A DNA stretch of 64,000 bases. Origin: Arthrobacter sp. B1I2 (GTDB lineage Bacteria > Actinomycetota > Actinomycetes > Actinomycetales > Micrococcaceae). Positions 3,516 through 59,815 of the stretch are shown here, piece by piece (position 1 is the stretch's first letter; each line of letters starts with the position of its first letter). The stretch covers positions 1,488,001 through 1,552,000 of the forward strand of contig NZ_JAUSYC010000001.1 of the NCBI RefSeq assembly GCF_030816485.1, read 5' to 3'. Under the pieces are notes generated by a model. The model searched no databases and was not told the DNA's origin. It saw only the letters and a program-made list of their open reading frames with translations. Made by a program: the position numbers and the translations under genes.

Positions 3516-3559
3516 CCCTTCCAGAATAGCGCTGCGGCGACGGCGGGAGGTCGGAGTGA

Positions 3560-4015
3560 CTAGAACACTCCTATGAGGTCGAGCGCCGGGCCCAAGGCCA
3601 GGGCGAAGACCAGGCCGCAGATGCAGAGCGAAACTGCTGCCGCGGACCAGTTGCCTGATCCGCGCAGTGACCGGTTCATGGCGGGGAGTGAGAGCCGCAG
3701 GGCGAGCGAGGCAAAAAGGAGAGGCAGGCTGAACAGAACCAGCGGAGTTACCCACGGCCATGGGGAAGGGCCTTCGTCCGGGTAGGTCATCAACATGGCG
3801 AACATGGAGAGCGGGCCGGTGAGGAACATGCTTGCAGGAGCAAGGATCGCCAGGACCAGGCTGGTGGCTCCTTTGTTTCCCGGGCCTCTGTTGGAGGGCC
3901 CCTCGTTGCCGGGCACGCCATGCGGCGGCTGGTCAGAGTGGCCCCCAAAGTCGGAGGGTGCACTGGTCCCGCCCGGGGGCGCGGGGCGGGGTTCCTGTGG
4001 CGGCGTAGTTTCCAT
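3560..4015 (-). CDS. Small membrane protein with three to four helices (DUF4190-like)
   Basis: A 151-residue protein starting at the ATG at 4015 behind AGGAG. Residues 1-45 are a Pro/Gly/Asn-rich soluble tail. Hydrophobic segments follow at about 47-70, 82-103 and 125-148, with a basic loop before the last (MNRSLRGSGNW). This layout, a disordered N-terminus then a small helical bundle, resembles actinobacterial DUF4190-type membrane proteins of unknown function. It ends 44 bp before trmB on the same strand and is divergent from the MFS gene at 4154. Confidence 0.65.
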   Translation of the reverse strand: METTPPQEPRPAPPGGTSAPSDFGGHSDQPPHGVPGNEGPSNRGPGNKGATSLVLAILAPASMFLTGPLSMFAMLMTYPDEGPSPWPWVTPLVLFSLPLLFASLALRLSLPAMNRSLRGSGNWSAAAVSLCICGLVFALALGPALDLIGVF

Positions 4016-4153
4016 GGTGCTCCTGCTAGTCGGTGCGGCTGTGTGCTTGGCCGCGGCTGGTTTCAACGTACGAAGCTGCGCGACGCACCGGAAGATAGGC
4101 CGGGCCCTATGTGGATAACTCCCGCCGCAGTGGTCTGCTGCAAGAATGGGCGG

Positions 4154-5497
4154 ATGACGGACGCGATGGATGCCGGGGCAAGGGAGCAGCGGCGAAGGGA
4201 AGTCTCCGGGGAGGTCCGGGGAGGGGCCGGGACGGACAGCAGCGTGGTGGACCTCAGCAATCTGGTGGACGCCGAAATCGATGAGCTGCCGGCAGCGGAA
4301 CCCACGCGGGTTGGCAGCCGGCGTGCTCTGGCCTACCTGGGCGTGTGCCTGGTCCTGATCGGCCTGAACCTGCGCAGCGTCTTTTCCAGCCTCTCTGCGG
4401 TCCTGCCGGAGGTGACCTCCCAGGCGGCGCTGCCCGGCTGGTCCGTGGTGGTGCTGACCACGGTTCCCGTGACGCTGCTGGGTGTCTTCGCCCCGATCGC
4501 CCCGGTTCTTGCCCGCCGGTTCGGCGCGGAGCGGGTGCTGCTGGGGGCCATGGCCTTGCTGACCGCGGGGCTGCTGCTGCGGCCGGTGGATACCGGTGCG
4601 GCCGGCGGCGCCGGCCACCTGCCTGCCCTCCTGGTGGGCACGGCAGCCTGCGGCGCGGCGATCGCGCTGTGCAACGTGCTTCTCCCGGGCCTTGTGAAGC
4701 GCGACTTCCCCCACCGGCTGGGGCTCATGGGCGGCCTCTACACCACCGCCATCTGTGCCTCCGCCGCGCTCGGAGCCGGCTTCACCTACCCGGTCTACAC
4801 GGCGACGGGGGAGTGGACCAAGGCGCTGTGGGTCTGGGCGGTGCCCGCCGCCGTCGTCCTTCTCTTGTTCCTTCCCGTCGCCGTTCGGCAGGGGAGCGTC
4901 CGGCACCAGTCGATCAGGGACGGGGTCAATGTGTGGCGCTCACCGGTTGCCTGGCAAGTGACCCTCTTCATGGTGCTGCAGGCCATGATGTCCTTCAGCG
5001 GGTTCGCCTGGCTGGCGCCCATCCTTCGCGAGAGAGGCGTTGACGGGGCAACCGCGGGGCTGATCGTTGCGGTGTGCATCGTGCTGCAGATGCTCGGTTC
5101 CCTGTTCGCGCCCGCGCTGGCCGCCAGGTTGCGGGACCAGCGCGCCATCAACACGGTGGTGGCGCTGATGACCGGCGGCGGGTTCGTATTGAGCATCCTG
5201 GGCCCGCTGGACCTGATCTGGGTGTGGGCCGGACTGCTGGGGCTGGGACAGGGAAGCCTCACGGCCTGTGCACTGACCCTGATCATGCTCCGCACCCGCG
5301 ACGGCCACACCGCGGCCCACCTGTCCGGCATGATGCAGGGGGTGGGCTACGGGGTGGGGTCCACGGGGACGCTTATGGTGGGGCAGCTGCATCAGGCCAC
5401 CGGGTCCTTCGTTCCCGCCGGAATCCTGTTCACGGTGGTCGGCCTGCTCGCGGCGGTCTTCGGTTACCGCTCCGGCCGCAACCGGTACGTGGGCTAG
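4154..5497 (+). CDS. MFS transporter, CynX/NimT type
   Basis: A 447-residue, 12-helix major facilitator protein. I start it at the ATG at 4154 (MTDAMDAGAREQ); about 60 soluble residues precede the first helix (LAYLGVCLVLIGLNLRSVFS). The opening G-L-N-L-R-S-V-F-S-S-L-S-A-V-L-P pattern and the helix-2/3 loop PVLARRFGAERVL are typical of the CynX/NimT branch, whose members move cyanate, 2-nitroimidazole or unknown substrates. The substrate here cannot be told. A second MFS gene follows 8 bp later, so the two are probably co-transcribed. Confidence 0.85.
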   Translation: MTDAMDAGAREQRRREVSGEVRGGAGTDSSVVDLSNLVDAEIDELPAAEPTRVGSRRALAYLGVCLVLIGLNLRSVFSSLSAVLPEVTSQAALPGWSVVVLTTVPVTLLGVFAPIAPVLARRFGAERVLLGAMALLTAGLLLRPVDTGAAGGAGHLPALLVGTAACGAAIALCNVLLPGLVKRDFPHRLGLMGGLYTTAICASAALGAGFTYPVYTATGEWTKALWVWAVPAAVVLLLFLPVAVRQGSVRHQSIRDGVNVWRSPVAWQVTLFMVLQAMMSFSGFAWLAPILRERGVDGATAGLIVAVCIVLQMLGSLFAPALAARLRDQRAINTVVALMTGGGFVLSILGPLDLIWVWAGLLGLGQGSLTACALTLIMLRTRDGHTAAHLSGMMQGVGYGVGSTGTLMVGQLHQATGSFVPAGILFTVVGLLAAVFGYRSGRNRYVG

Positions 5498-38002: not shown

Positions 38003-39109
38003 ATGGTCCATAAAGTCCAAGCAGTTGTTGTCAAGGAAAAGAACGCTCCGGTGTCGCTGGAGACCATCCTGGTTCCGGACCCGGGCCCGGGGGAGGCGCT
38101 GGTGGACATCATCACCTGCGGCGTCTGCCACACGGACCTGCACTACAAGCAGGGCGGCATCGGCGACGACTTCCCCTATTTGCTGGGTCATGAGGCCACG
38201 GGCGTGGTCAGCGCGGTGGGCCCTGGCGTGACGCAGGTAGCCCCGGGCGACCGGGTCATCCTGAACTGGCGGGCCGTCTGCGGCGAGTGCCGGGCATGTG
38301 CCAAGGGCCAGCCCCAGTACTGCTTCAACACCCACAACGCCACCCAGAAGATGACCCTGGAAGACGGCACTGAGCTTTCGCCCGCCCTGGGCATTGGGGC
38401 CTTCGCCGAAAAAACTCTTGTTGCCGCCGGCCAGTGCACCAAGGTTGATCCCGAGGCTGACGCCGCGGCCGTCGGCCTGCTGGGCTGCGGCGTGATGGCC
38501 GGCATTGGCGCCGCCATCAACACCGGCGAGGTCAAGCGCGGCGAGTCCGTGGCGGTCATCGGCTGCGGCGGCGTGGGCATTGCGGCGATCGCCGGGGCAA
38601 AGCTGGCGGGTGCGACGACGATCATCGCTGTAGACATCGACGACAACAAGATCGAAATGGCCAAGTCCCTGGGTGCCACCCACGGCGTGAACTCCAAGCA
38701 GGAGGACGCCGTTGAAGCCATCCGTGCCCTCACCGGAGGCCACGGAGCGGACGTGGTGATTGACGCCGTCGGCCGTCCTGAGACCTATAAGCAGGCCTTC
38801 TATGCCCGCGACCTCGCCGGCCGGGTGGTCCTGGTGGGCGTGCCGACGCCGGAGATGACGCTGGAACTGCCGCTGCTGGATGTCTTTGGCCGCGGCGGCT
38901 CGCTGAAGTCCTCCTGGTACGGCGACTGCCTGCCCTCCCGCGACTTCCCCATGCTGGTGCAGCACTACCGGCAGGGCAACCTTGACCTGGACGCCTTCGT
39001 TTCCGAGCGCATCTCCATTGACCAGATCGAGGAGGCCTTTGGGAAGATGCACGAGGGCAAGGTCCTGCGGTCCGTCGTCGAGGTCCAGCCGACGGGGGCG
39101 TCCGCATGA
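38003..39109 (+). CDS. mscR: S-(hydroxymethyl)mycothiol dehydrogenase
   Basis: A zinc alcohol dehydrogenase that oxidises the formaldehyde-mycothiol adduct to S-formylmycothiol using NAD+. The 368-residue protein has the catalytic zinc start [30 protein letters not shown], the structural-zinc cysteines [15 protein letters not shown], and the NAD motif [19 protein letters not shown]. It is followed at a 4-bp overlap by the MBL hydrolase, the arrangement known for actinobacterial formaldehyde detoxification. In this strain it would remove formaldehyde released by GbcAB. Confidence 0.92.
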
Positions 39110-39844: not shown

Positions 39845-42199
39845 ATGAAGTTCGGGAAGCAGCCCGCCCCGGTCGCGGACATCAACGAGGACAAGCTCGA
39901 GGTCCACAAACCCAAGACAGAGGCCGCCGGGGTCAAAGCCGTCATGGTGGCCCTGGAACGTGCCGTGGCCCAGGCGGGCGTGGCCCGTACGACACAGTCG
40001 CTGTTGCGGCTGAACCAGCGCGGCGGCTTCGACTGCCCGGGCTGTGCGTGGCCGGAATCGGACAAGAAGCGCAAGACAGCGGAGTTCTGCGAGAACGGCG
40101 CCAAGGCGGTGGCTGAGGAAAACACCGTGCGGACCGTGGGGGCGGAGTTCTGGGCGAAGCACTCCATCGCGGAGCTGTCGGAGAAGACCGAGTACTGGCT
40201 GGGCAACCAGGGCCGGCTCAGCGAACCGGTGGTCATCAGGGAGGGCGAGACGCATTACTCGCCGATTTCCTGGGCCGATGCCTTCGACCTCATTGGCGGA
40301 CACATCCGCGCCACCACCCCTGACCGCTGCGTCTTTTACACCTCCGGCCGCACCGCCAACGAGACAGCGTTTATGTACCAGCTGTTCGCACGGTCCCTGG
40401 GCACCAACAACCTGCCCGACTGCTCCAACATGTGCCACGAATCCTCCGGCTCGGCCCTGAACCCGACCATCGGCATCGGCAAGGGCACGGTGTCCCTTGA
40501 GGACATCCACGACGCCGAGCTGATCTTTGTGGTGGGCCAGAACCCGGGCACCAACCATCCACGCATGCTGTCCGCGCTGAAGGAGTGCAAGGACAAAGGC
40601 GGCAGGATCGTGGCCGTGAATCCGCTGCCCGAGGCCGGCCTGTTCAACTTCAAGGATCCACAGACGGTCTCCGGGGTGGTGGGCGGCGGCACCCCGCTCG
40701 CGGACGAGTACCTGCAGATCAAGGTGGGCGGTGACCTGGCCTTGTTCCAGGCGCTGGGCCACCTGCTGCTGGAAGCCGAGAAGGAGAACCCGGGCACCGT
40801 CGTCGACCATTCCTTCATTGCCGCGCAGACGGACGGGTTCGACGCCTACCGTGAAGCGCGCCGGGTGCTCGATTGGGATGAGACCGAAAAGGCCACCGGG
40901 CTGTCCCGCGCACAGATCGAGAAGGTCGCCGGCATGCTGGTGGCGTCCAAGGCTTCGATTTTCTGCTGGGCGCTGGGCGTGACGCAGCAGCCGCACTCCG
41001 TGGACACCATCAAGGAGATGGTCAACGTCCTGCTGCTGCAAGGCAACTTCGGCAAACCCGGCGCCGGCGCGTGCCCCGTCCGCGGGCACTCGAACGTCCA
41101 GGGCGACCGGACCATGGGCATCTGGGAAAAGCCGAAGGAATGGCTTCTCTCGGCACTCGATTCCGAGTTCGGCATCACCTCCCCGCGGCACCATGGGTAC
41201 GACGCGGTGGAGTCCATGGAGGCGTTCGAACGCGACGAGGTGGACGTGTTCGTGTCGATGGGCGGGAACTTCTCGCTCGCCTGCTCTGACACCGAGGCCC
41301 TGGAAGCGGGGATGCAGCGGATCGGGCTGACTGTGCACATCTCCACCAAACCCAACCGCTCCCACATCGTGCACGGCCGCACGTCGCTGATCCTGCCCAC
41401 CCTGGGCCGGACCGACAAGGACGACAAGCACCCGAAGGGTGCGCAGTTCCTGTCCGTGGAGGACTCCATGTCCGTGGTGCACTCCACCCAGGGCCGCCTG
41501 ACCCCCGTGTCCGAACACCTGCTGGCCGAACCCGTGATCGTGGCCCGGATGGCGGAGGCCACCTTCGGGCCGGACCACCCCGTGGACTGGAAGGCCATGG
41601 CCGGGGACTACGACATCATCCGCGACCACATTGCCCGCGTCCTGCCCGGGTTCGAGGACTTCAACACCCGGGTGCGAACCAAGAACGGATTCGTGCTGCC
41701 CAACCCGCCGCGGGACACGCGCTCCTTCGCCACGGACATCGGCCGGGGCCGGTTCACGGTCAGCCCGCTGGAGTACCTGACCCCGCCGCCCGGGCACCTG
41801 GTGCTGCAGACCATCCGCAGCCACGACCAGTACAACACCACGTTCTACGGCCTGGACGACCGCTACCGCGGCATTTCCGGCGGCCGCCGCGTGATCCTGG
41901 TTCACCCTGAAGACCTCGCCGAATCCGGCTTCCAGGACCGGGAACTGGTGGACGTGGTCAGCACCTTCCAGGGCGTGGACCGCAGGGCAGATAAGTTCCG
42001 GCTCGTTGCCTACCCCACCGCCAAGGGCTGCGCAGCGGCGTACTTCCCTGAGGCCAACGCCCTGGTCCACAAGGAAAACGTGGCCCGCGTGTCCAATACG
42101 CCCGGCTTCAAGGCCATGTTCGTCCGCTTCACGCCACACGTGGCAGAGGTAGCGGCAGCCCAGGCCTCAGCTGGGGAGCTGGCAGGGACGCCGGCTTAG
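39845..42199 (+). CDS. FdhF/YdeP-type molybdopterin oxidoreductase, probable formate dehydrogenase
   Basis: A 784-residue molybdopterin (bis-MGD) protein of the FdhF/YdeP branch. It carries GGFDCPGCAWPE near residue 60 in place of a classic four-cysteine iron-sulfur site, FYTSGRTANETAFMYQLFAR, and NMCHESSGSAL, whose Cys is in the usual Mo-ligand position. Later come VGQNPGTNHPRML and SMGGNFSLACSDTEAL. YdeP-like proteins have uncertain substrates, but its place behind mscR and the MBL hydrolase points to formate oxidation to CO2. AAGGAAG precedes the ATG at 39845. A terminator follows at 42234. Confidence 0.85.
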   Translation: MKFGKQPAPVADINEDKLEVHKPKTEAAGVKAVMVALERAVAQAGVARTTQSLLRLNQRGGFDCPGCAWPESDKKRKTAEFCENGAKAVAEENTVRTVGAEFWAKHSIAELSEKTEYWLGNQGRLSEPVVIREGETHYSPISWADAFDLIGGHIRATTPDRCVFYTSGRTANETAFMYQLFARSLGTNNLPDCSNMCHESSGSALNPTIGIGKGTVSLEDIHDAELIFVVGQNPGTNHPRMLSALKECKDKGGRIVAVNPLPEAGLFNFKDPQTVSGVVGGGTPLADEYLQIKVGGDLALFQALGHLLLEAEKENPGTVVDHSFIAAQTDGFDAYREARRVLDWDETEKATGLSRAQIEKVAGMLVASKASIFCWALGVTQQPHSVDTIKEMVNVLLLQGNFGKPGAGACPVRGHSNVQGDRTMGIWEKPKEWLLSALDSEFGITSPRHHGYDAVESMEAFERDEVDVFVSMGGNFSLACSDTEALEAGMQRIGLTVHISTKPNRSHIVHGRTSLILPTLGRTDKDDKHPKGAQFLSVEDSMSVVHSTQGRLTPVSEHLLAEPVIVARMAEATFGPDHPVDWKAMAGDYDIIRDHIARVLPGFEDFNTRVRTKNGFVLPNPPRDTRSFATDIGRGRFTVSPLEYLTPPPGHLVLQTIRSHDQYNTTFYGLDDRYRGISGGRRVILVHPEDLAESGFQDRELVDVVSTFQGVDRRADKFRLVAYPTAKGCAAAYFPEANALVHKENVARVSNTPGFKAMFVRFTPHVAEVAAAQASAGELAGTPA

Positions 42200-42554: not shown

Positions 42555-43859
42555 ATGACTACCTCAGTGAACGCGCCGCTCAGCGCACGCGGAAAGCTCG
42601 CCTCAGCAATGCCTGCCGAGCAGCTGGCTGAAATTACCGAGCTGTTCGCCTTGCGGCGCACTGGCTACTCCCTCGATGCCCCCTTCTACACCGACCCGAC
42701 AATCTTCAAGCTCGACATGGAGGCCATCTTCGGCCAGCACTGGATCTTTGCCGGCAGCGTTGCCGAGCTGCCGGAGCCGGGCGACTACATCACGGTGGAC
42801 TACGGCCCCTACTCCTTGATCGTGCTGCGCACCGACGAGGGTGACGTCAACGTCCTGCACAACGTCTGCCGCCACCGCGGTGCACGTGTCCTGACCGAAG
42901 CTGCCGGTTCCACCGGAAACCTGGTCTGCGGCTACCACTCCTGGACCTATTCCCCCGAGGGCAACCTGATCCACGCCTCCGCCCCCGGCGAAGCCAAGTT
43001 CGACAAGAACTGCTTTGCCCTCAAGCGCGCCCACAGCCGCGAGGTTGCCGGGCTCATCTTTGTCTGCATCGCAGACGTTCCGCCCGCAGACTTCGACGAG
43101 ACCGCCAAGATCTTCGAGCCCTACCTCGCACCCCACGACCTGTCCAAGACGAAGATTGCCTACCAGCAGAACATCATCGAAGAGGGCAACTGGAAGCTCG
43201 TCATGGAGAACAACCGTGAGTGCTACCACTGTGACGGGCACCCGGAACTCGCCTGCTCGCTCTTCCCCACCTGGGGCCTGACCGAGGGACTGATCCCGGC
43301 CCACCTCGAAGAGGTCTGGGACCGCAACAAGGAAGCCCAGTCTTCCCTCGAGGAGCGGTGCCGCCGCTACGGCCTGCCCTACGAGGTGGTTGAGGAACTC
43401 GATACCCGTATTGCCGGTATCCGTATTTCACGCGAATCCCTGGACGGCGAAGGCGAATCGTTCTCGGCCGACGGCCGCAGGCTCTCCAAGAAGCTGCTCG
43501 GCGACCTGCGGGACTTCCGCCTGGGCCGCTGCTCGATGCACCTGCAGCCCAACAGCTGGTTCCATTTCCTGGGCGACCACGTCATCACCTTTGGCGTCTT
43601 CCCCATCAACGAGCACCAGTCCCTGGTCCGCACCACCTGGCTGGTGGCCGACGACGCCGAGGAAGGCGTTGACTACGACCTAGAGAAGCTCACCTACACC
43701 TGGAAGCAGACCAACCTGCAGGACAAGGCGTTCGTGGAACTGTGCCAGCAGGGCGCTGCCAGCCCCGCCTACGAGCCCGGCCCGTACATGAAGAGCGAAT
43801 ACCAGGTAGAGGCCTTCATCAACTGGTACGTCCAGCGCGTGCAGGAGCACTTGGCATGA
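42555..43859 (+). CDS. gbcA: Glycine betaine monooxygenase, Rieske oxygenase subunit
   Basis: GbcA demethylates glycine betaine to dimethylglycine and releases formaldehyde, using electrons from GbcB. The 434-residue Rieske oxygenase has C105-x-H107 in NVCRHRG and C125-x2-H128 in CGYHSW. The mononuclear-iron site lies in ENNRECYHCDGHPEL with His225 and His229. The ATG at 42555 follows GGGAGG. gbcB overlaps the stop (ATGA). Distinguishing betaine from related substrates (stachydrine, carnitine) rests on the flanking DMGO, BCCT and FdhA genes, which all fit betaine. Confidence 0.9.
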   Translation: MTTSVNAPLSARGKLASAMPAEQLAEITELFALRRTGYSLDAPFYTDPTIFKLDMEAIFGQHWIFAGSVAELPEPGDYITVDYGPYSLIVLRTDEGDVNVLHNVCRHRGARVLTEAAGSTGNLVCGYHSWTYSPEGNLIHASAPGEAKFDKNCFALKRAHSREVAGLIFVCIADVPPADFDETAKIFEPYLAPHDLSKTKIAYQQNIIEEGNWKLVMENNRECYHCDGHPELACSLFPTWGLTEGLIPAHLEEVWDRNKEAQSSLEERCRRYGLPYEVVEELDTRIAGIRISRESLDGEGESFSADGRRLSKKLLGDLRDFRLGRCSMHLQPNSWFHFLGDHVITFGVFPINEHQSLVRTTWLVADDAEEGVDYDLEKLTYTWKQTNLQDKAFVELCQQGAASPAYEPGPYMKSEYQVEAFINWYVQRVQEHLA

Positions 43860-45262
43860 TTGACGTCCTCACTGAGACGCCCGTCCAGGAACCACAGCGC
43901 ATCCGCGGTCTTGAGATGCCGTGGAACCGGGTGATGGGCAGCATCGAAGGACCTGCCAGCGCAGCCAAGGCCCTGGGCCCGTGGCATCCGCAGGAGTTCG
44001 TGGCCGAATGCGTCGAGACCGTTCCCGAAGCGGGCGGCATGATGACGTTCGTGTTCCGCCGCTGCGACGGCGCGCCCCTGGCGTTCCGCCCGGGCCAGTA
44101 CGTGAACATCGCCTTCCCCGTGAACGGCGACGACCAGGAACCGGTGGACCGCAGCTACTCGCTGTCCAGTTCGCCCACGCAACCGTGGACCTTCAGCGTC
44201 ACCGTCAAGCGCGACCCCGGCGGACTGGTTTCCCCGTGGGTGCACCAGAACGTCAGGCCCGGCACCGTCCTGGACATGCTGGGACCGGTGGGGGCATTCC
44301 ACCTGCCTGACGCCGACCGGCGCGCCCGGTACCTCTTCCTGGCTGCCGGCGCCGGCATCACCCCCATCATGTCGATGATGCGGACCATCCACTCCCTGGC
44401 GGGAACCGCCGATGTGGTGGTGCTTTACCACGGCGCGGAAGCCGGCGGCTTTGCCTTCCACCGGGAGTTGGCCTATATCGCTTCCGTGGACTCGCGGATC
44501 AAGGTCTTTTACGCCCTGGGCGACCGCGGCAGGCCCGAGGACTGGGAAGGCTTCAGCGGACGGCTGACCTCAGCCATGATCGATGAGGTGGCACCCGACG
44601 CCAATGGCCGGCAGGTCTACGCCTGCGGCCCTGAGGGTTACCTGAACAGTGCCACTGAGCTGCTCAGGAAAGTGGGCGTCGACGACACTTCAATCTACAT
44701 GGAGTTCTTCTCCGGCGACCGGCAGACCCTCCTCGAATACCAGGCCGAGCTCGCCCTGGCGGCGGACATCGCAGGGGAGATCGCCGAGGACATTGCCGAG
44801 TCCGCCGAGGACTACTTTGAAAGCCAGCCTGCGGCGTTCGGGATGTACGAGCCCGGCTACGACGAGGATGGAACCCTGCAGGCCACGGGACTCGCGCTGG
44901 AAGCAGTCGGCCCGGAAGCCCCTGCTGCCGCCGCCACTCCGGCTCCGGCCCCGGAGGCGCAGGCCCCCGACGCCTCAAGCTTCGACACCGTGGGAACCGG
45001 GAGCCTCACTCTGTCCTTCATGCGCACCGGGATCAATGTGCGGATCGACCCGGAGGAGCCCATCCTTGGGGTGGCGCAGCGTGCGGGTGTCCGGATCGGC
45101 GCCAACTGCAAGGAGGGCATGTGCGGCTCCTGCAAGGTGGTCAGGCTGTCCGGGGAGATCGACATGAACCACCAGGGTGGAATCCGGAAACGGGAGATTG
45201 ATGCCGGCAAGTTCCTTCCCTGCTGTTCCACGGCGCGTACCGACATGGTGATCGACGCCTAG
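43856..45262 (+). CDS. gbcB: Glycine betaine monooxygenase reductase with long Ala/Pro linker
   Basis: A 468-residue electron-transfer partner of GbcA. The FNR-type FAD site is VDRSYSLSSSP, the NAD site is GAGITPIMSMM, and a plant-type 2Fe-2S ferredoxin is at the C-terminus with CKEGMCGSC (Cys418, 423, 426) and a late CC. Between the reductase (ending near 288) and the ferredoxin (from about 382) is a linker of about 90 residues: an acidic helix (ALAADIAGEIAEDIAES), then an Ala/Pro/Glu-rich stretch. I recall Pseudomonas GbcB at about 370 residues without this linker, so the insertion is notable. Confidence 0.88.
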   Translation: MIDVLTETPVQEPQRIRGLEMPWNRVMGSIEGPASAAKALGPWHPQEFVAECVETVPEAGGMMTFVFRRCDGAPLAFRPGQYVNIAFPVNGDDQEPVDRSYSLSSSPTQPWTFSVTVKRDPGGLVSPWVHQNVRPGTVLDMLGPVGAFHLPDADRRARYLFLAAGAGITPIMSMMRTIHSLAGTADVVVLYHGAEAGGFAFHRELAYIASVDSRIKVFYALGDRGRPEDWEGFSGRLTSAMIDEVAPDANGRQVYACGPEGYLNSATELLRKVGVDDTSIYMEFFSGDRQTLLEYQAELALAADIAGEIAEDIAESAEDYFESQPAAFGMYEPGYDEDGTLQATGLALEAVGPEAPAAAATPAPAPEAQAPDASSFDTVGTGSLTLSFMRTGINVRIDPEEPILGVAQRAGVRIGANCKEGMCGSCKVVRLSGEIDMNHQGGIRKREIDAGKFLPCCSTARTDMVIDA

Positions 45263-45358: not shown

Positions 45359-45391
45359 AGCAACCGAACGCCAACCATAGGAGCCATGCCC

Positions 45392-46606
45392 ATGTCAGGT
45401 AACAAAGCCGTTGCGTACAAGGAGCCCGGAGTCGTCGAGGTCATCGACACCCCCTATCCCTCGTTTGAACTGAAAGCCGGCCCCGGCGTCAATCCCGCTA
45501 ATGTCGGCCGGAAGGTCCCGCACGGCGTCATCCTGCGCACCGTGAGCACCAACATCTGCGGGTCCGACCAGCACATGGTCCGCGGCCGGACCACCGCCCC
45601 TGCCGGCCTCGTCCTGGGGCACGAGATCACCGGCGAAGTCATCGAGACCGGGCCCGACGTCGAGTTCATCAAGGTCGGGGACATCGTCTCGGTCCCCTTC
45701 AACATCTCCTGCGGGCGCTGCCGGAATTGCAAAGAGCGCAAGACCGGGATCTGCCTGAACGTGAACCCGGACCGTCCGGGCTCTGCCTACGGCTATGTCG
45801 ACATGGGCGGCTGGGTCGGTGGCCAGGCGGAGTACGTCCTGGTTCCGTACGCCGACTGGAACCTGCTGCGCTTCCCCGACCGGGACCAGGCACTGGAGAA
45901 GATCATGGACCTGACCATGCTCTCCGACATCCTGCCCACCGGTTTCCACGGTGCCGTGACGGCCGGCGTCGGCGTCGGGTCCACCGTGTACGTTGCCGGA
46001 GCCGGTCCCGTGGGCCTTGCCGCGGCCGCCAGCGCCCAGCTGCTGGGAGCCGCGGTGGTTATCGTGGGCGACCTGAACGAGGACCGCCTGGCACGGGCCC
46101 GGTCCTTTGGCTGTGAAACCGTCAATGTGGCCAACGGCGACCCCGCCGACCAGATCGAGCAGATCCTCGGCGTCCGGGAAGTCGACTCCGGCATCGATGC
46201 CGTCGGTTTCGAGGCCCGCGGACACGGCAACGGCGCCCAGGAAGCACCGGCCACGGTGCTTAACTCGCTGATGGACCTCACCACTGCGGGCGGCTCCGTG
46301 GGCATTCCCGGCCTCTACGTCACGGGCGACCCGGGAGCTGCGGACGAGGCCGCCAGGAAGGGAAGCCTGTCCCTGTCACTGGGGACCGGCTGGGCCAAGT
46401 CCCTGTCCTTCACCACGGGCCAGTGCCCGGTGATGAAGTACAACCGTCAGCTGATGATGGCGATTTTGCATGACAGGATCCAGATCGCCAAGGCGGTCAA
46501 CGCTACGGCCATTTCGCTGGACGATGCCCCGCGCGGGTACGCGGAGTTCGACGCCGGAGCTGCCACGAAGTATGTCCTGGACCCGAACGGCTACCTCAAC
46601 AACTGA
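45392..46606 (+). CDS. fdhA: Glutathione-independent formaldehyde dehydrogenase
   Basis: A zinc-dependent NAD enzyme that oxidises free formaldehyde, here the product of GbcAB. The 404-residue protein has SNICGSDQHMVRGR at the catalytic zinc, LGHEITGEVIETGPDV, the structural-zinc cysteines CGRCRNCKERKTGIC, the NAD motif VAGAGPVGLAAAASAQL, and the long loop GFEARGHGNGAQEAPAT characteristic of Pseudomonas putida-type FdhA. I use the second ATG at 45392 because AGGAG is 8 nt before it; the ATG at 45386 is only 2 nt from it. Terminators follow at 46641 and 46792. Confidence 0.92.
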   Translation: MSGNKAVAYKEPGVVEVIDTPYPSFELKAGPGVNPANVGRKVPHGVILRTVSTNICGSDQHMVRGRTTAPAGLVLGHEITGEVIETGPDVEFIKVGDIVSVPFNISCGRCRNCKERKTGICLNVNPDRPGSAYGYVDMGGWVGGQAEYVLVPYADWNLLRFPDRDQALEKIMDLTMLSDILPTGFHGAVTAGVGVGSTVYVAGAGPVGLAAAASAQLLGAAVVIVGDLNEDRLARARSFGCETVNVANGDPADQIEQILGVREVDSGIDAVGFEARGHGNGAQEAPATVLNSLMDLTTAGGSVGIPGLYVTGDPGAADEAARKGSLSLSLGTGWAKSLSFTTGQCPVMKYNRQLMMAILHDRIQIAKAVNATAISLDDAPRGYAEFDAGAATKYVLDPNGYLNN

Positions 46607-46849: not shown

Positions 46850-49576
<2,727 letters not shown>

Positions 49577-49610: not shown

Positions 49611-51023
49611 TCAGTGGGAGAAGTCTGCTGAGATCTCGGCGAGGGTGCGCCCCTTCGTCTCAGGCGCGAGCCATTGCGAGAGGACTGCGCCGAGTAATGC
49701 GACGGCGGCGGCTACCACCATGGTTGCGCCCATGCCGATGTTGGCGATCGCCCATGGCAGGGCGAAGGTGCCGAGTGCGGCTCCGATGCGGCTGAAGGAC
49801 GCGGCGAAGCCCATGCCGACGCCGCGCAGGTGGCCGGGGAATACCTCGGCCGGATAGACCTGGGTCATCGTGGTGTAGCCGGCATTGAAGTAGGAGAAGG
49901 CGAGAAACAGGACGAGCACGAGGATCGCTGGTGCGTTCCCCCATACTCCGATGACCAGAAGGATGCCCGCGCAGAGCCACTGCCCGGGCACGGTGAGGAT
50001 TCGGCGACCGAGCTTGTCAATCAGAAGTACGCTGGTGACAACGCCCGCGACCGCAAGTGCGGACAGGCCGACTCCACCGGCCCAGCCGCCGCCGAAGCCG
50101 AATTGGTTGAGCACCTCGTCGGCGAAGGTCGCGATCGCGAAGTACGGAGTGACCGCGCAGAACCAAAAACCTGCAGTGAAGATGGTGGCGCGCCAGTACT
50201 GCCTCGAGAACAGCATTCCGAAGGAGGCGTTCTTGATTTTGGTCCCACTCTCCGCGGCTTGGGCCTCCTGGATCATCCTGAGATCCATCTCTCCGGTGAT
50301 GCTGTCGTGCATCTGCGGCGATTCGATATATCGGTGTGCGATCGCGAGTGCTTCCTTGTGCCGTCCCTTCGTAATGAGCCAGCTCGGCGATTCGGGGAGG
50401 CCTATGCGGGCGAGGAACAGAACGAATGCCAGTATCGTGCTCGTGCCGAGTACTAGGCGCCATGGGGTGCCGACGTCCTGCAGGAGCGTGCCGATGATGA
50501 ATGCCATCATGAAACCGACGTACCAGGCGATCAGGGTCAGTCCGAGCAACCGCCCGCGGAGCTTGGGCGGGGAGAACTCTGACAGCAGTGGCCCACCGAT
50601 TGAGTACTCGCCGCCGATCGCGACGCCCATCATGAATCGGATGATGGCCAGCTGGATCACGGCGCCGTCTCCAGAGGTTACGAAGAATTGGGCTCCTGAG
50701 GCGACCAGGAACAGGCCCATGTCCACGAGGAACATTGGCTTGCGTCCGAACTTGTCAGTAGCCCAGCCGGCCAGCGGGGAGCCGATGAAGATGCCAGCCA
50801 GCGGGCCTGCAGCGATCATGCCCAGCGATAGTGCGTCGAGCTTGAGATCTGACCGCATGGATCCGGTGACGGGGCCGATGATTCCGAGGATGTAACCGTC
50901 GAGGAACATCCCGCCGATGAAGACCGCGACAAGCCGCACCATGAAGCGGCGTTTGAACCTGGAGCTGGTCTCTTTTGATATGGAGGTGTCGACGGAGGCC
51001 GTCGTCCTGGTCGGATTGATCAT
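49611..51023 (-). CDS. MFS metabolite transporter in the betaine cluster
   Basis: A 470-residue, 12-helix sugar-porter/AAHS-type MFS protein. The start is the ATG at 51023 (MINPTRTTASVDTS). Motifs: DGYILGIIGPVTGSM in helix 1, the loop GWATDKFGRKPMFLVDMG, GEYSIGGPLLSEFSPPKLRGRLLG in helix 4-5, and PESPSWLITKGRHKEAL before the central loop. It carries the same operator as gbcAB, so its substrate is probably a betaine-pathway compound, but this is inference. Two sampled 60-nt stretches count 55 and 60 percent GC, which looks low, and recent acquisition is possible. Confidence 0.82.
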   Translation of the reverse strand: MINPTRTTASVDTSISKETSSRFKRRFMVRLVAVFIGGMFLDGYILGIIGPVTGSMRSDLKLDALSLGMIAAGPLAGIFIGSPLAGWATDKFGRKPMFLVDMGLFLVASGAQFFVTSGDGAVIQLAIIRFMMGVAIGGEYSIGGPLLSEFSPPKLRGRLLGLTLIAWYVGFMMAFIIGTLLQDVGTPWRLVLGTSTILAFVLFLARIGLPESPSWLITKGRHKEALAIAHRYIESPQMHDSITGEMDLRMIQEAQAAESGTKIKNASFGMLFSRQYWRATIFTAGFWFCAVTPYFAIATFADEVLNQFGFGGGWAGGVGLSALAVAGVVTSVLLIDKLGRRILTVPGQWLCAGILLVIGVWGNAPAILVLVLFLAFSYFNAGYTTMTQVYPAEVFPGHLRGVGMGFAASFSRIGAALGTFALPWAIANIGMGATMVVAAAVALLGAVLSQWLAPETKGRTLAEISADFSH

Positions 51024-51351
51024 TGAAATTCGTTCCCTTCGGGCTTCAGCGCAAACCGCTGACGGCACCAGAGCGCCGTTTCTTAGACGCACAGATTGAT
51101 TTCGGCGGCGCCCCCAGGTTCCGGCACTCCGCGCTGCTTTGATCGATGGTGCTGCCACCTTTGATAGTCATAGACAGTTTCCTTTGGTGATCCAGGCTGC
51201 CGCAAGGATGCTGACAACGTTGTGCGGCCGATGCGCGAGCCAGAGCTCCACCATGGATCGGCCATCATGAATTAGTTCGTCTGTTTCCAAGGCCGCCACG
51301 GGTGGAGCCGGGTGACTGGAGGATATCCGCGCGAGCCGCGTTCCGCGATGA

Positions 51352-51596: not shown

Positions 51597-52502
51597 CTAG
51601 CCCGCCGTTTCCAGGACCTGGGCCTCCACGGCTTCGGCCGGCAGTGGCAGGGAGGAAGATTGCCGGCGCGCGGCCTCCACGGTGTGCAGGAGCAGCAGCG
51701 CGGTGGTCACGGAGCCGACGCCGCCGGGAACAGGGGTGAGTCCCGCTGCGGTCCCCGTGACGCTGGCTTCGTCCACATCACCCACCAGCGAGCCGTCGGC
51801 AAGGACGTTCGTGCCGACGTCCACCACGACGGTCCGGGAGGAGACGTGGCTGCCCGTCAGCAGCCCGGCGCGGCCGGCGGCGACCACCACGACATCGGCG
51901 TCCTTCGTGTAGCGCTCCAGCGGGCCCGACCTGGAATGGCAAACCGTCACCGCGGCGTCTCGTGCCAGCAGGAGGAGCGACAGCGGCTTGCCCACAACGG
52001 CGGACCGGCCCACCACCACCACGCCCTTGCCCGCGACGGGAACCTGGTAGTGGTCCAGGATTTCGACGACGGAGCGGGCGGTGGCGGGAGCAAAGGCCGG
52101 CTGACCGACGGCCAAGCGTCCCAGGCTCAGCGGATTGGCGCCGTCAATGTCCTTTTCGGGGGCGATGAGGCCCACGAGGTTGTCGGTCCGGACACCCGCC
52201 GGCAGCGGGGTTTGCAGGATGATGCCGTTCACGGACGGTTCCTCGCTGAGGTCCCGCAGGACACTGGCCAGCACCGGTTCCGTTGCATCATGGCCCAGGT
52301 CGACGATTCGGCAGCCGACTCCGGCGCGCTCCGCTGCCCGCTCGATGGAACGGACGTACCAGCGCGTTGACTCATCGGCGGTCGCCATGACCACCGCCAC
52401 GACCGGGCGGACGCCGTCCAGTCCAAGCGACCGGACCTGGTCCTGGACCTCCTGTTGGAACAAACCGGCCAAAGGCTTTCCGGAAAGTACTGCGGTGTTC
52501 AA
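51597..52502 (-). CDS. folD: FolD-like methylene-THF dehydrogenase lacking the cyclohydrolase lysine
   Basis: FolD normally converts methylene-THF to methenyl-THF and then to 10-formyl-THF. The 301-residue protein keeps Tyr49 in STRWYVRSIERAAERAG, the substrate motif GIILQTPLPAGV, the NADP region VVVVGRSAVVGKPLSLLLL and the C-terminal GLTPVPGGVGSVTTALLL. At residue 53, where E. coli FolD has the catalytic Lys54 of the cyclohydrolase step, it has Ile. It overlaps fchA by 4 bp. The gene is probably a dehydrogenase only, with FchA doing the hydrolysis. The role of this lysine is known from E. coli and human enzymes; the loss here is my reading. Confidence 0.88.
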   Translation of the reverse strand: MNTAVLSGKPLAGLFQQEVQDQVRSLGLDGVRPVVAVVMATADESTRWYVRSIERAAERAGVGCRIVDLGHDATEPVLASVLRDLSEEPSVNGIILQTPLPAGVRTDNLVGLIAPEKDIDGANPLSLGRLAVGQPAFAPATARSVVEILDHYQVPVAGKGVVVVGRSAVVGKPLSLLLLARDAAVTVCHSRSGPLERYTKDADVVVVAAGRAGLLTGSHVSSRTVVVDVGTNVLADGSLVGDVDEASVTGTAAGLTPVPGGVGSVTTALLLLHTVEAARRQSSSLPLPAEAVEAQVLETAG

Positions 52503-53125
52503 CCCAGGATCCTTTCCCGAACGCGGGCGGAGAGGGCATCTGCTGCCAGGACGACCTTCTCCTCGATGCCGTCCGTCTGTTGGGCAAGCAGCGCGCGTGC
52601 CTCCGGATCCTTGACCGCCACGACGTTGATGTCGATGTTGACGCGCGCCGTGGTGGCAGCTGCGCGGGCGGCGTCAGCGGCCGCGGCAACGTCGCTGATG
52701 ACGTTGGCATTGGCGACGTCGAACAGTTCGCTGGCGAGGTCCACGATGCCACCCGACAGCTTGATCAGCCGGGCAGGGGTCTGCGCCGCCTGGATGAGCG
52801 CGGACTGGATCCCGGCCGCACGGGCGACCTTGAGTTCATCGGTGCCGGACGGGAGCTTGTAGGAGTCGATGACTGCCTGGAAGGCACGTTCGTCCTCGTC
52901 GGCCAGGCTCAGCGCCTCACCGACGAGGTCGTCGGCGGCCTGCGTGATGCGCTGGACCAGCGGTGCATGCTGTTCGTATTTGGCGCCGGTGGTGTAACGC
53001 GCCACCATGGCCACCAGGGCGGCACCTTGGGCGGCGTGCAGGGCCGCTGCAGCGCCACCGCCTGGCGTGGGCTGCTTCCCGGCCAGCCGGGTGAGGTAGC
53101 TGCTGACTGTCTCTGAACTGATCAT
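52499..53125 (-). CDS. fchA: Methenyl-THF cyclohydrolase (FchA), cyclodeaminase family
   Basis: A 208-residue all-helical protein of the formiminotransferase-cyclodeaminase C-terminal family. The start MISSETVSSYLTRLAGKQPTPGGGAAAALHAAQGAALVAM-type region contains the PTPGGGAA motif. FchA proteins hydrolyse methenyl-THF to 10-formyl-THF, as known from methylotrophs and Clostridium. It overlaps folD (ATGA) and follows the DMGO gene by 4 bp on the same strand, so it fits between FolD and PurU in the one-carbon route. Confidence 0.88.
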   Translation of the reverse strand: MISSETVSSYLTRLAGKQPTPGGGAAAALHAAQGAALVAMVARYTTGAKYEQHAPLVQRITQAADDLVGEALSLADEDERAFQAVIDSYKLPSGTDELKVARAAGIQSALIQAAQTPARLIKLSGGIVDLASELFDVANANVISDVAAAADAARAAATTARVNIDINVVAVKDPEARALLAQQTDGIEEKVVLAADALSARVRERILG

Positions 53126-53129
53126 GGTG

Positions 53130-56578
<3,449 letters not shown>

Positions 56579-56698: not shown

Positions 56699-57379
56699 AT
56701 GGCATTCGAAGCTTTGGTGGTGGCGGACGTCGTGGGGAAGAAGTCCCTGGCTGACGTTGCCTACGAAAGCATCCGCGACTGGTTGCTGACCCTTGAAATC
56801 AAACCCGGAGAGCTGCTGAATGACGAACTCCTGGCCAAGAATCTAGGTGTGGGGCGCACTCCAGTGCGCGAAGCCCTGAAGCGGCTGGAACTGGACCGGC
56901 TGGTGAAGACCTATCCCCGCCGGGGCACCTTCGCTACCAGGGTGGACGTGACTGACCTTTCCTACATTTCGGAGATCCGCGCCCAGCTCGAGCCCCTCGC
57001 TGCGGCGCGTGCCGCACGGGTGGCTTCCCCTGCGGTCCGGGACGAGCTGCGTGCCACGCTCGAAAAGGTTGAGGCGTTCGACGTGTCCTCGGCGACCGTG
57101 ACGGAGACGCTGCAGCTGGATGCCCGGGTGCACCAGGGCATTTACGCCGCCGCCGCCAACCCGCACCTGGAAGACATCCTGATTCGCTATGACAACCTGG
57201 CAACGCGCATCTGGTGCATGGTCATTGACCGGCTGCCGGACCTGTCCCATCACGTTCGTGAACACCTCGATCTGCTCCGCGCCGTTATCGACGGGGATGA
57301 GGAGCGGGCTGCGGAGCTTGCCCGCGTCCACGTGAGCGGATTCGAAAGCGCGGTCCGGGAGGCGCTTTTCAAGGCCTAG
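56699..57379 (+). CDS. GntR-family (FCD) regulator of C1/betaine genes
   Basis: A 226-residue repressor-type protein. The winged HTH is at about residues 17-75 (SLADVAYESIRDWLLTLEIKPGELLNDELLAKNLGVGRTPVREALKRLE region). The FCD effector domain follows, with the metal/ligand residues in LDARVHQGIYAAAANPHL and HVREHLDLLRAVIDGDEERA. It is divergent from purU and precedes a small gene. TGATATAT sites lie on both sides of it and at the mscR promoter. The effector may be a folate or C1-related acid, which cannot be told. Confidence 0.87.
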   Translation: MAFEALVVADVVGKKSLADVAYESIRDWLLTLEIKPGELLNDELLAKNLGVGRTPVREALKRLELDRLVKTYPRRGTFATRVDVTDLSYISEIRAQLEPLAAARAARVASPAVRDELRATLEKVEAFDVSSATVTETLQLDARVHQGIYAAAANPHLEDILIRYDNLATRIWCMVIDRLPDLSHHVREHLDLLRAVIDGDEERAAELARVHVSGFESAVREALFKA

Positions 57380-57880: not shown

Positions 57881-59815
57881 CTACCGCATGGCTGCCTTTT
57901 CCGGCTCCGGATCTTCCACGCCGGGACCCGTGCCGATGCAGTTTGTGCCTTGGGCGCATCCTTCGGCACATTCATGCTTCGTCACAAGCTCAAACTGGAC
58001 ACCGCGGTGCTGCTCAACGCCGGTCCGGATAGCCCGTTCCACCACGGAGTCCGCCAGCCGGCGGCGCAGGGAGAGGGGGTCCCTGCGCAGGTCCTTGGTG
58101 ATGGCGAAACAGAGCAACAGCATGACGATGACGAAGGGCAAGGCCGCGACGATGGTGATCCGCTGCAGGCCTGACAACGCTTCGGAGGGCTGGTCACCGC
58201 CCGCCAGCAACATGACGGCGGCCACGGCACCGGTGAGGGCACCCCAGAAAATTACCAGCGCACGCTTGGGGTCGGAACTGCCGTTGGAACTCAGCGACGC
58301 CATGATCAGGGAGGCGGAGTCGGCGCCCGTGATAAAGAAAATTGCCACTAGGACCATGGCCAGGACGATCACGGCCGCAATCATCCACGCGGGCAGGGGG
58401 AGATTCTTTACCAGGTTGAACAGGGCGCCGTCAAAATCGATGGTTGCCTTGCCGTCGGTGACGGTCATCAGGCCAGGTGTGCCGGCCTTGTCCGCTTCCT
58501 GCTGGATATGGAAGGCGGTTCCGCCGAAGATGCCGAACCAGATGACACTGACAATGCTGGGAACCAGCAGTACGCCGGTGACGAACTGCCGGATGGTCCG
58601 GCCCCGGCTGATCCGGGCGATGAACATGCCCACGAAGGGCGTCCAGGAAATCCACCAGGCCCAGTAGAAGATGGTCCAGCCGGACATCCAGGTCCGGAGC
58701 GCCTCGTCGCCTACGGCCTCAGTACGGGAGGACATTTCGGCCAGGTCGCGCAAGTAGTCGCCGACCGCCGAGGGGATGAGGTTGAGGATGAAAAGAGTGG
58801 GGCCCGCCACGAACACGATGAGGGCAAGGACCACCGCCAGGACCATGTTGACGTTGGACAGCCACTGTATTCCGCGGCTGATGCCGGACAGGGCGGACGC
58901 GATGAAGCACGCTGTCAGGATCGCCACGATGCCCACGAGCACGGGCGTTCCGATCTCGCCTGTCCAGCCGTTGGAGGTGAAACCGCTGCCAATCTGCAGG
59001 GCGCCGAGGCCCAGTGACGCGGCGGTGCCGAACAGGGTGGCGAAGATGGCCAGGATGTTGATGACCTTGCCCACCGGCCCCTCTACGGTCCTGATGCCGA
59101 ACAAGGAGGTGAAGGCAGCGGAAATCAGTTGCCTGCGGCCCAGCCGGTAGGTGCCGTAGGCCATGGCAATGCCCACCACCGCGTACATGGCCCACGGGTG
59201 CAGGGTCCAGTGGAAGATCGAGGTGGCCATGGCCGTCTGGATGGCTGCGGGGGTCCGGCCGTCAACGGTGCCGGGCGGGGGAGAGACGAAGTGGTACAGC
59301 GGCTCGGCCACCCCATAGAACATCAGGCCGATGCCCATTCCGGCGGCGAACATCATGGCGATCCATGACACCGTGCGGAACTCGGGTTTCTCGCCGTCCT
59401 TGCCGAGCGGAATGTTGCCGAACTTGCCTAGGGCCAGCCACAGGACGAAGACGACGAACAGGGAGGCGAGGACCATGAAGAGCCAGCCCGTGTACTCCAT
59501 GACCCAGTCGAGGGCGTCCTTGGAAGTGGTGGCCAGGCCGTCCTTGTCGAGGAATCCCCATGCCACGAACGCCAGTGCGATGGCGCCGGTGATGCCGAAC
59601 GTCGCCTTGTCCAGCGTCAGCTTCCGGTTGCGGCGCTGGGAGACGGCCTGCTCCCTGTTGCTCTGCCGCAGTTCCTCCAGGATCTGCTCGTGTTCGTTGA
59701 CGGCAGGAGGGGCCGTTGCCACTTCCTCTTGATAGGTGTCCAGCGGCTCGGGGGGAATGTCCCCTGAAGGCGGCACTTTTGGTTTGGCGGAGCTCAGGTC
59801 ACTGGTAATGGCCAT
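57881..59815 (-). CDS. BCCT-family betaine/choline/carnitine transporter
   Basis: A 644-residue, 12-helix sodium- or proton-coupled carrier. The BCCT signature is WTIFYWAWWISWTPFVGMFIARIS, preceded by GMGIGLMFYGVAEPLYHF, the substrate-site region of BetP-like carriers. Both ends are long: about 75 charged N-terminal residues before the first helix and about 90 residues after the last, with a cysteine pair (HECAEGCAQGTNC). In BetP such tails sense osmotic stress. Context (operator shared with gbcAB) fits uptake of betaine for catabolism. The ATG is at 59815. Confidence 0.93.
   Translation of the reverse strand: MAITSDLSSAKPKVPPSGDIPPEPLDTYQEEVATAPPAVNEHEQILEELRQSNREQAVSQRRNRKLTLDKATFGITGAIALAFVAWGFLDKDGLATTSKDALDWVMEYTGWLFMVLASLFVVFVLWLALGKFGNIPLGKDGEKPEFRTVSWIAMMFAAGMGIGLMFYGVAEPLYHFVSPPPGTVDGRTPAAIQTAMATSIFHWTLHPWAMYAVVGIAMAYGTYRLGRRQLISAAFTSLFGIRTVEGPVGKVINILAIFATLFGTAASLGLGALQIGSGFTSNGWTGEIGTPVLVGIVAILTACFIASALSGISRGIQWLSNVNMVLAVVLALIVFVAGPTLFILNLIPSAVGDYLRDLAEMSSRTEAVGDEALRTWMSGWTIFYWAWWISWTPFVGMFIARISRGRTIRQFVTGVLLVPSIVSVIWFGIFGGTAFHIQQEADKAGTPGLMTVTDGKATIDFDGALFNLVKNLPLPAWMIAAVIVLAMVLVAIFFITGADSASLIMASLSSNGSSDPKRALVIFWGALTGAVAAVMLLAGGDQPSEALSGLQRITIVAALPFVIVMLLLCFAITKDLRRDPLSLRRRLADSVVERAIRTGVEQHRGVQFELVTKHECAEGCAQGTNCIGTGPGVEDPEPEKAAMR

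Follow-up and report, generated by a model that had tools for sequence, protein, structure and literature searches.

This study analyzed a 64,000-nucleotide stretch of the Arthrobacter sp. B1I2 genome (contig NZ_JAUSYC010000001.1, positions 1,488,001 to 1,552,000; hereafter the window), in which a folD-like gene overlaps an fchA-like gene and encodes isoleucine at the position of the catalytic lysine of Escherichia coli FolD. It is highly likely that this FolD is a dehydrogenase only, that FchA acts as the cyclohydrolase, and that the two carry the methylene-THF made by dimethylglycine oxidase (DMGO) to 10-formyl-THF, from which PurU would release formate. The sequence, the gene order, the conservation, and a paralogue were observed, and from these we infer the activities, the direction of the flux, and the cofactor. 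The features of the window are as follows.

38003..39109, plus strand: S-(hydroxymethyl)mycothiol dehydrogenase (TIGR03451, above the cut-off)
39845..42199, plus strand: FdhF/YdeP-family molybdopterin oxidoreductase (TIGR01701, above the cut-off)
42555..43859, plus strand: glycine betaine monooxygenase oxygenase subunit-like gene (GbcA; best model NF058607, below the cut-off)
43856..45262, plus strand: glycine betaine monooxygenase reductase-like gene (GbcB; best model NF058606, below the cut-off)
45386..46606, plus strand: glutathione-independent formaldehyde dehydrogenase (TIGR02819, above the cut-off)
46850..49498, minus strand: second DMGO-type gene (copy 1)
49611..51158, minus strand: MFS transporter
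51597..52502, minus strand: folD-like gene, 301 aa, TTG start; Tyr49, Gln97, and Asp120 kept, Ile53 for E. coli Lys54
52344..52346, minus strand: Ile53 codon (ATC) of folD
52499..52502, minus strand: 4-bp overlap TTGA of the fchA stop and the folD start
52499..53125, minus strand: fchA-like gene, 208 aa, FTCD_C (PF04961, E 8.7e-49)
53130..55676, minus strand: dimethylglycine oxidase-type gene, copy 2 (DAO + FAO_M + GCV_T + GCV_T_C domains)
55673..56578, minus strand: purU, formyl-THF deformylase (NCBIfam, 318 bits against a cut-off of 286); GTGA overlap (4 bp) with DMGO copy 2
56699..57379, plus strand: transcriptional regulator, divergent from purU (sole NCBIfam match TIGR03338, below the cut-off)
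57881..59815, minus strand: BCCT transporter (passes the BCCT subfamily cut-off; top score from the betaine BCCT model, below that model's own cut-off)

Alignment with the E. coli FolD reference sequence (L063, from NC_000913) placed Y49-V-R-S-I53 of the window FolD on Y50-V-A-S-K54 of the E. coli enzyme (motif Y-V-x-S-x), and Tyr49, Gln97, and Asp120 on Tyr50, Gln98, and Asp121. The first-pass annotation had claimed that Ile53 stands where E. coli has Lys54, and the alignment that it proposed as a check bore this out: lysine is absent at the site, as a split of the two activities predicts, and residues 49-61 around the site contain none. The human equivalent of Lys54 is Lys56. The protein matched the FolD families of Pfam (PF00763, 84.5 bits against a cut-off of 32.8; PF02882, 181.2 bits against 27), and its top score with the NCBIfam bifunctional FolD models was 248 bits against a cut-off of 423; among the best 25 of the 30 NCBIfam FolD models matched, it stayed below every cut-off. 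Because Ile53 falls in the Lys54 column, where bifunctional FolD has its catalytic lysine, the protein was not classed as a bifunctional FolD. It shares with the E. coli bifunctional enzyme the family and the equivalents of Tyr50, Gln98, and Asp121, but differs in having Ile for Lys54 and an FchA encoded next door. The retained Tyr49, Gln97, and Asp120, together with GRS and CHSRS motifs of a type common in Lys-bearing FolDs, suggest that dehydrogenase activity is preserved, and the motif type, together with the human enzyme, points to NADP+ as the probable cofactor. In E. coli, FolD K54N showed ~19% dehydrogenase activity and undetectable cyclohydrolase activity, and FolD Q98H showed ~8% and an estimated 1%, respectively, according to the available part of PMC5688156. 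These data predict that losing the Lys/Gln pair by either route would abolish the cyclohydrolase; for a Gln98-to-Glu change, no measured effect was found.

The window FchA matched the FTCD_C domain at 166 bits (cut-off 24.5) but scored 140 bits with the curated FchA equivalog NF045657, below the cut-off of 275; judged by its context, it may work like FchA while standing outside the certified NF045657 equivalogs. The solved structure nearest to it by sequence was 7vg4, named methenyltetrahydrofolate cyclohydrolase (E 7.6e-29), which we take to be of methylotroph origin. In Methylobacterium, the partner of FchA is MtdA, not FolD. The literature searched for an FchA structure held, judged by title, no paper on such a structure. 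The PGGG and Asp152/Asn174 positions are conserved within the FchA group. The overlapping next gene had been called FchA in the first-pass annotation; the 4-bp overlap and the FTCD_C family stood, whereas the order was reversed, with fchA upstream of folD in transcription, which makes folD the last gene of the set. A profile search for formiminotransferase (PF07837), which in a control matched in 1 of 14 known genomes, gave no match in the Arthrobacter genome, which speaks against a formimino-THF route there. A second, weaker FTCD_C protein is encoded in the same genome (G000:C1:908103-908573; L061, L065), not beside folD, and has Asp where the FchA group has Asn174.

The minus-strand genes run in the order purU-DMGO-fchA-folD, with a 4-bp overlap between purU and DMGO, a 4-bp gap between DMGO and fchA, and a 4-bp overlap between fchA and folD. 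The domains of copy 2 (53130..55676) come from the search; its presumed name, DMGO, follows the first-pass annotation. The surroundings were read as a glycine betaine breakdown island, in which the GbcA, GbcB, and betaine-BCCT models scored below their cut-offs and which includes two formaldehyde-oxidising dehydrogenases. Both DMGO-type genes (46850-49498 and 53130-55676), ~66% identical, have been kept in this one island.

The first-pass annotation had proposed looking for a second, standard folD elsewhere, and one was found: the other FolD of the genome (G000:C1:4071252-4072121) is Lys-bearing and lies beside glyA. Of 80 genomes sampled from the family, 8 encode a FolD closely related to that of the window (identity >= 58%, E <= 6.7e-93). 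In each of the 8, this FolD has Ile and lies next to an fchA, the second FolD carries Lys and Gln, and a full-length DMGO is found at most ~6 kb away on the same contig. Some DMGO-bearing relatives lack the FolD/FchA pair, among them G682, with an 87% identical DMGO and one FolD only, of ordinary score; DMGO therefore does not require the Ile-type FolD. Three near-complete genomes of one genus of the family (g259; G620, G649, and G672) have a full-length DMGO but gave no convincing FolD match (best E 6.0e-5 to 2.7e-4).

By sequence and gene order, a FolD lacking the cyclohydrolase lysine is thus encoded together with an FchA, as in a split system, and one activity per enzyme is predicted for the pair. 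With its catalytic lysine now isoleucine, the window FolD would have lost the methenyl-THF cyclohydrolase step. The product of Arthrobacter DMGO is established to be methylene-THF; DMGO would thereby transfer the methyl carbon of dimethylglycine to THF, the Ile-type FolD would oxidize methylene-THF to methenyl-THF, presumably with NADP+, and FchA from the overlapping gene would convert methenyl-THF to 10-formyl-THF. PurU would then release formate and free THF for the next DMGO turnover. The formate would probably be oxidized by the FdhF-like enzyme of the island, and housekeeping 10-formyl-THF would be the task of the Lys-bearing FolD beside glyA. The earlier proposal that a FolD/FchA split serves DMGO-derived methylene-THF is supported by this reading of the sequence, the gene order, and the published E. 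coli mutants. The genome encodes one formate-THF ligase, elsewhere, so the reductive direction would be possible; the oxidative direction is favoured because purU and DMGO share the operon. In bifunctional enzymes, the cyclohydrolase is the slow step. We hypothesize that the benefit of the split is relief of this step; in the DMGO operon, the pair may lift it and return THF quickly to DMGO. Methenyl-THF can hydrolyze spontaneously, as stated in the available part of PMC5688156, so FchA may merely speed that step.

A genome scan for relatives of the window FolD yielded at least 56 loci. Among the matches listed, Ile occurred with an adjacent fchA in all 45 loci of the Arthrobacter group (here Arthrobacter, Pseudarthrobacter, Paenarthrobacter, and Sinomonas), on which basis the presence of Ile53 beside fchA is more than chance. 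The same combination was found in Planotetraspora (L047), Streptomyces (L048), and a Saccharimonadales MAG (L050), and fchA was adjacent in 48/48 Ile-type loci among the matches listed. Of these 48 listed loci, 42 carried purU and DMGO copy 2, the six without both being L005 and L029 (contig ends), L032, L047, L048, and L050; an FdhF-like homologue (47-57% identical) lay downstream of folD in 29, and the folD match was single and unbroken in 47. In L049, the folD frame is broken, and the piece with the site reads Ile. Genes flanking the Planotetraspora and Streptomyces pairs offered no clue to the pathway. Seven loci (L051-L054 and L056-L058) had Lys and no FchA neighbour. In the divergent FolD of a small Lactobacillus MAG (L055:8001-8750), the two catalytic positions are occupied by Leu and Thr; the MAG gave no FTCD_C match.

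Among plasmid records, a protein search matched FolD in 305 and FchA in 4; in all four of the latter (L328-L331), the FolD adjoining the FchA has Ile. The Paenarthrobacter sp. YJN-5 plasmid pYJN5-2 (L327:4001-4882) encodes an Ile FolD that is 78% identical to the window FolD; fchA was absent beside it within 8.8 kb, no FchA match was found on the plasmid, and its neighbours, an amino acid permease and an aminobutyraldehyde dehydrogenase, form an unrelated neighbourhood. This exception, read from the plasmid sequence alone, indicates that Ile is not strictly dependent on a linked fchA.

FolD and FTCD_C were further searched in 396 genomes of Actinomycetota and in 199 genomes from the phylum to which the Lactobacillus MAG belongs, assumed to be Bacillota; an FchA on the same strand within 600 bp of FolD was counted as adjacent, and identical sequences were removed. 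Counted as distinct FolD sequences, which are not independent events, 0/149 FolDs with an adjacent FchA kept both Lys54 and Gln98 (74 from Actinomycetota, 27 from Bacillota, and 48 contig loci near the window), against 105/117 FolDs lacking one. The latter comprised 25/27 from Actinomycetota, a set skewed toward FolDs that match that of the window best (30 loci), 66/75 from Bacillota, 7/8 contig loci, and 7/7 of a mixed remainder including E. coli. Beside FchA, the residues at the two sites were Ile/Gln (the window clade), Ala with Phe, Leu, or Met, and Val/Leu, with a few Ile/Leu, Ile/Phe, and Leu/Phe; in Bacillota they were Lys/Glu (23/27) and Ala/Met (4/27). The 12 non-adjacent rows lacking the Lys/Gln pair read Leu/Gln (L069, L071), Gln/Gln (L297, L299, L305, L306, L324), Lys/Glu (L313-L316), and Leu/Thr (L055). 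An FTCD_C gene lies ~5.5 kb away in L315 and L316, and an FTCD_C match was found elsewhere in 10 of the 12 genomes, with none in G462 (L324) and G403 (L055).

For Actinomycetota, 90 FchA places were taken (30 loci and 60 regions, weaker matches being left out), with a FolD nearby at 71 and none at 19; for Bacillota, the material was 30 FchA loci, the 30 FolD loci with the best matches, and 60 selected regions, 18 of which had been picked for close FolD and FchA coordinates. The non-adjacency of some later-fetched loci rests on coordinates among the matches listed. Three partial rows lacking the sites (L308, L309, and one of L049) were removed, and the second L049 piece was entered as Ile/Gln; L001, L002, and L059, being repeats or cut, did not enter the count. 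Reads added after the count gave Ile with FchA in ten loci (L328-L337, of which L332 and L334 were probably already counted), Lys/Gln lacking FchA in six (L338-L343), and one more exception, the Ile FolD of L327.

A quick tree was built from 146 FolDs after thinning at 80% identity, with the Lys54 and Gln98 columns excluded; it required at least 3 changes of the Lys/Gln state and at least 6 of FchA adjacency. Three independent pairs were supported, with 6 at most, a number too small for a sign test to reach 0.05; the neighbour pattern is strong over a handful of clades and is not a statistically independent test. It is fairly likely that across bacteria an adjacent FchA predicts a cyclohydrolase-dead FolD (Lys54 replaced by Ile, Ala, Val, or Leu, Gln98 by Glu, or both), and that the Ile-type pair serves purine synthesis in Saccharimonadales and forms a methylene-THF-to-formate unit of the DMGO operon in Arthrobacter relatives. 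The broader idea that FchA anywhere in the genome predicts loss of the lysine was rejected: many Bacillota with an unlinked FTCD_C keep Lys and Gln, which limits the claim to adjacency. An FTCD_C match over the cut-off occurred in 128/396 genomes of the phylum sample, not all of them beside folD. A placement of the Val/Leu FolD clade near the yeast-type dehydrogenase 1edz was likewise rejected, with bacterial FolDs matching at E 2.5e-54 against 3e-11.

An Ile- or Leu-type FolD was the only FolD found in G375, G398 (the Saccharimonadales genome), G291, G244, G214, and G049. In the Saccharimonadales MAG, a purK-purE-fchA-folD-purF-purN-purD run (L050:5746-12358; gene names from Pfam domains) includes the only FolD found, in an fchA-folD(Ile) pair. 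A purine run of this kind requires 10-formyl-THF for synthesis. The sole FolD within the purine run suggests that the pair can probably replace bifunctional FolD. In the window, the pair is an addition within a breakdown operon. In two genomes of one genus (L069 and L071, with L169 and L182), a Leu-type FolD was the only FolD found, and FchA lay on a different contig.

We also considered that the window FolD is still bifunctional, with another residue in the role of lysine and FchA redundant or adding capacity. The kept Tyr, Gln, and Asp of the site, the standard family and cofactor motif, and L327, with its Ile FolD and no fchA beside it, would fit this reading. It is nevertheless unlikely, given that no lysine stands within residues 49-61, that the Lys/Gln pair is missing in 149/149 FolDs beside FchA, and that E. 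coli K54N has no detectable cyclohydrolase in the available part of PMC5688156. A FolD that is decayed or regulatory and inactive is scarcely credible: the catalytic residue is gone and one frame is broken (L049), but the dehydrogenase residues and the cofactor motif are conserved, the match is unbroken in 47/48 loci among the matches listed, and six genomes have an Ile- or Leu-type protein as the only FolD found.

The neighbour could instead be a formimino-THF cyclodeaminase, making its link to FolD incidental. Membership in FTCD_C and the score under the curated FchA cut-off speak for this alternative, which is highly improbable in view of the missing PF07837 match, the methenyl-THF cyclohydrolase as nearest solved structure, and the gene overlap with linkage in 48/48 loci among the matches listed. 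A further proposal concerns the origin of the site and is compatible with the dehydrogenase-only reading: the lysine may have been lost under pressure of a lysine-binding natural compound such as carolacton, with FchA kept as compensation. In PMC5688156 (available in part), two hydrogen bonds link K54 with carolacton, which leaves the residual dehydrogenase activity of E. coli K54N wholly unaffected. We regard this origin as very unlikely, as a Lys-bearing FolD is still in the same cell and another FchA-linked clade keeps Lys, with Glu at Gln98.

A division of labour between a dehydrogenase-only FolD and an FchA cyclohydrolase is of a known kind. Aluri et al. (2016; doi 10.1099/mic.0.000209) are said to have described in Clostridium perfringens a dehydrogenase-only FolD and a separate FchA that replace bifunctional FolD. 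The split predicted for the window resembles this one but differs in its place: the C. perfringens pair is reportedly the main set, whereas the window pair comes on top of a Lys-bearing FolD encoded elsewhere, as a second set within a catabolic operon. The FchA-linked Bacillota FolDs sampled mostly had Lys with Glu at Gln98 (23/27). The available part of PMC7219735 cites the C. perfringens FolD/FchA paper as a reference. For Arthrobacter, the available part of PMC3534580 describes DMGO in folate-linked demethylation and PurU within a sarcosine cluster, features shared with the window; the word cyclohydrolase has 0 occurrences in the main text of this Rue61a genome paper. It cites Meskys et al. 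(2001) on Arthrobacter DMGO and sarcosine gene clusters, a work that may describe part of the window operon. In the literature searched, which excludes most subscription journals, no description of a DMGO-linked pair or of the neighbour pattern was found, judged mostly by titles and the opening lines of abstracts; on DMGO with folate, the Rue61a paper was the one clear match. Both the neighbour pattern and the placing of such a split, as an extra set, in a catabolic operon may be new.

Annotation usually treats FolD proteins as bifunctional, and the NCBIfam family models do the same. Should the neighbour pattern hold, gene order and two residues would tell which FolDs are not bifunctional, and folate models of the genomes concerned would change. 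The Arthrobacter case offers a compact, testable example of a cell in which biosynthesis would have its own FolD and one-carbon breakdown a split version. In three Bacillota genomes, two FolD genes lie in tandem or close together (L305:547-1371 + 1502-2335; L306:529-1350 + 1484-2314; L324:291-1121 + 3545-4372). One copy is ordinary; in the other, the Lys54 and Asp121 sites hold Gln and Glu, respectively. Such pairs could represent another division of labour.
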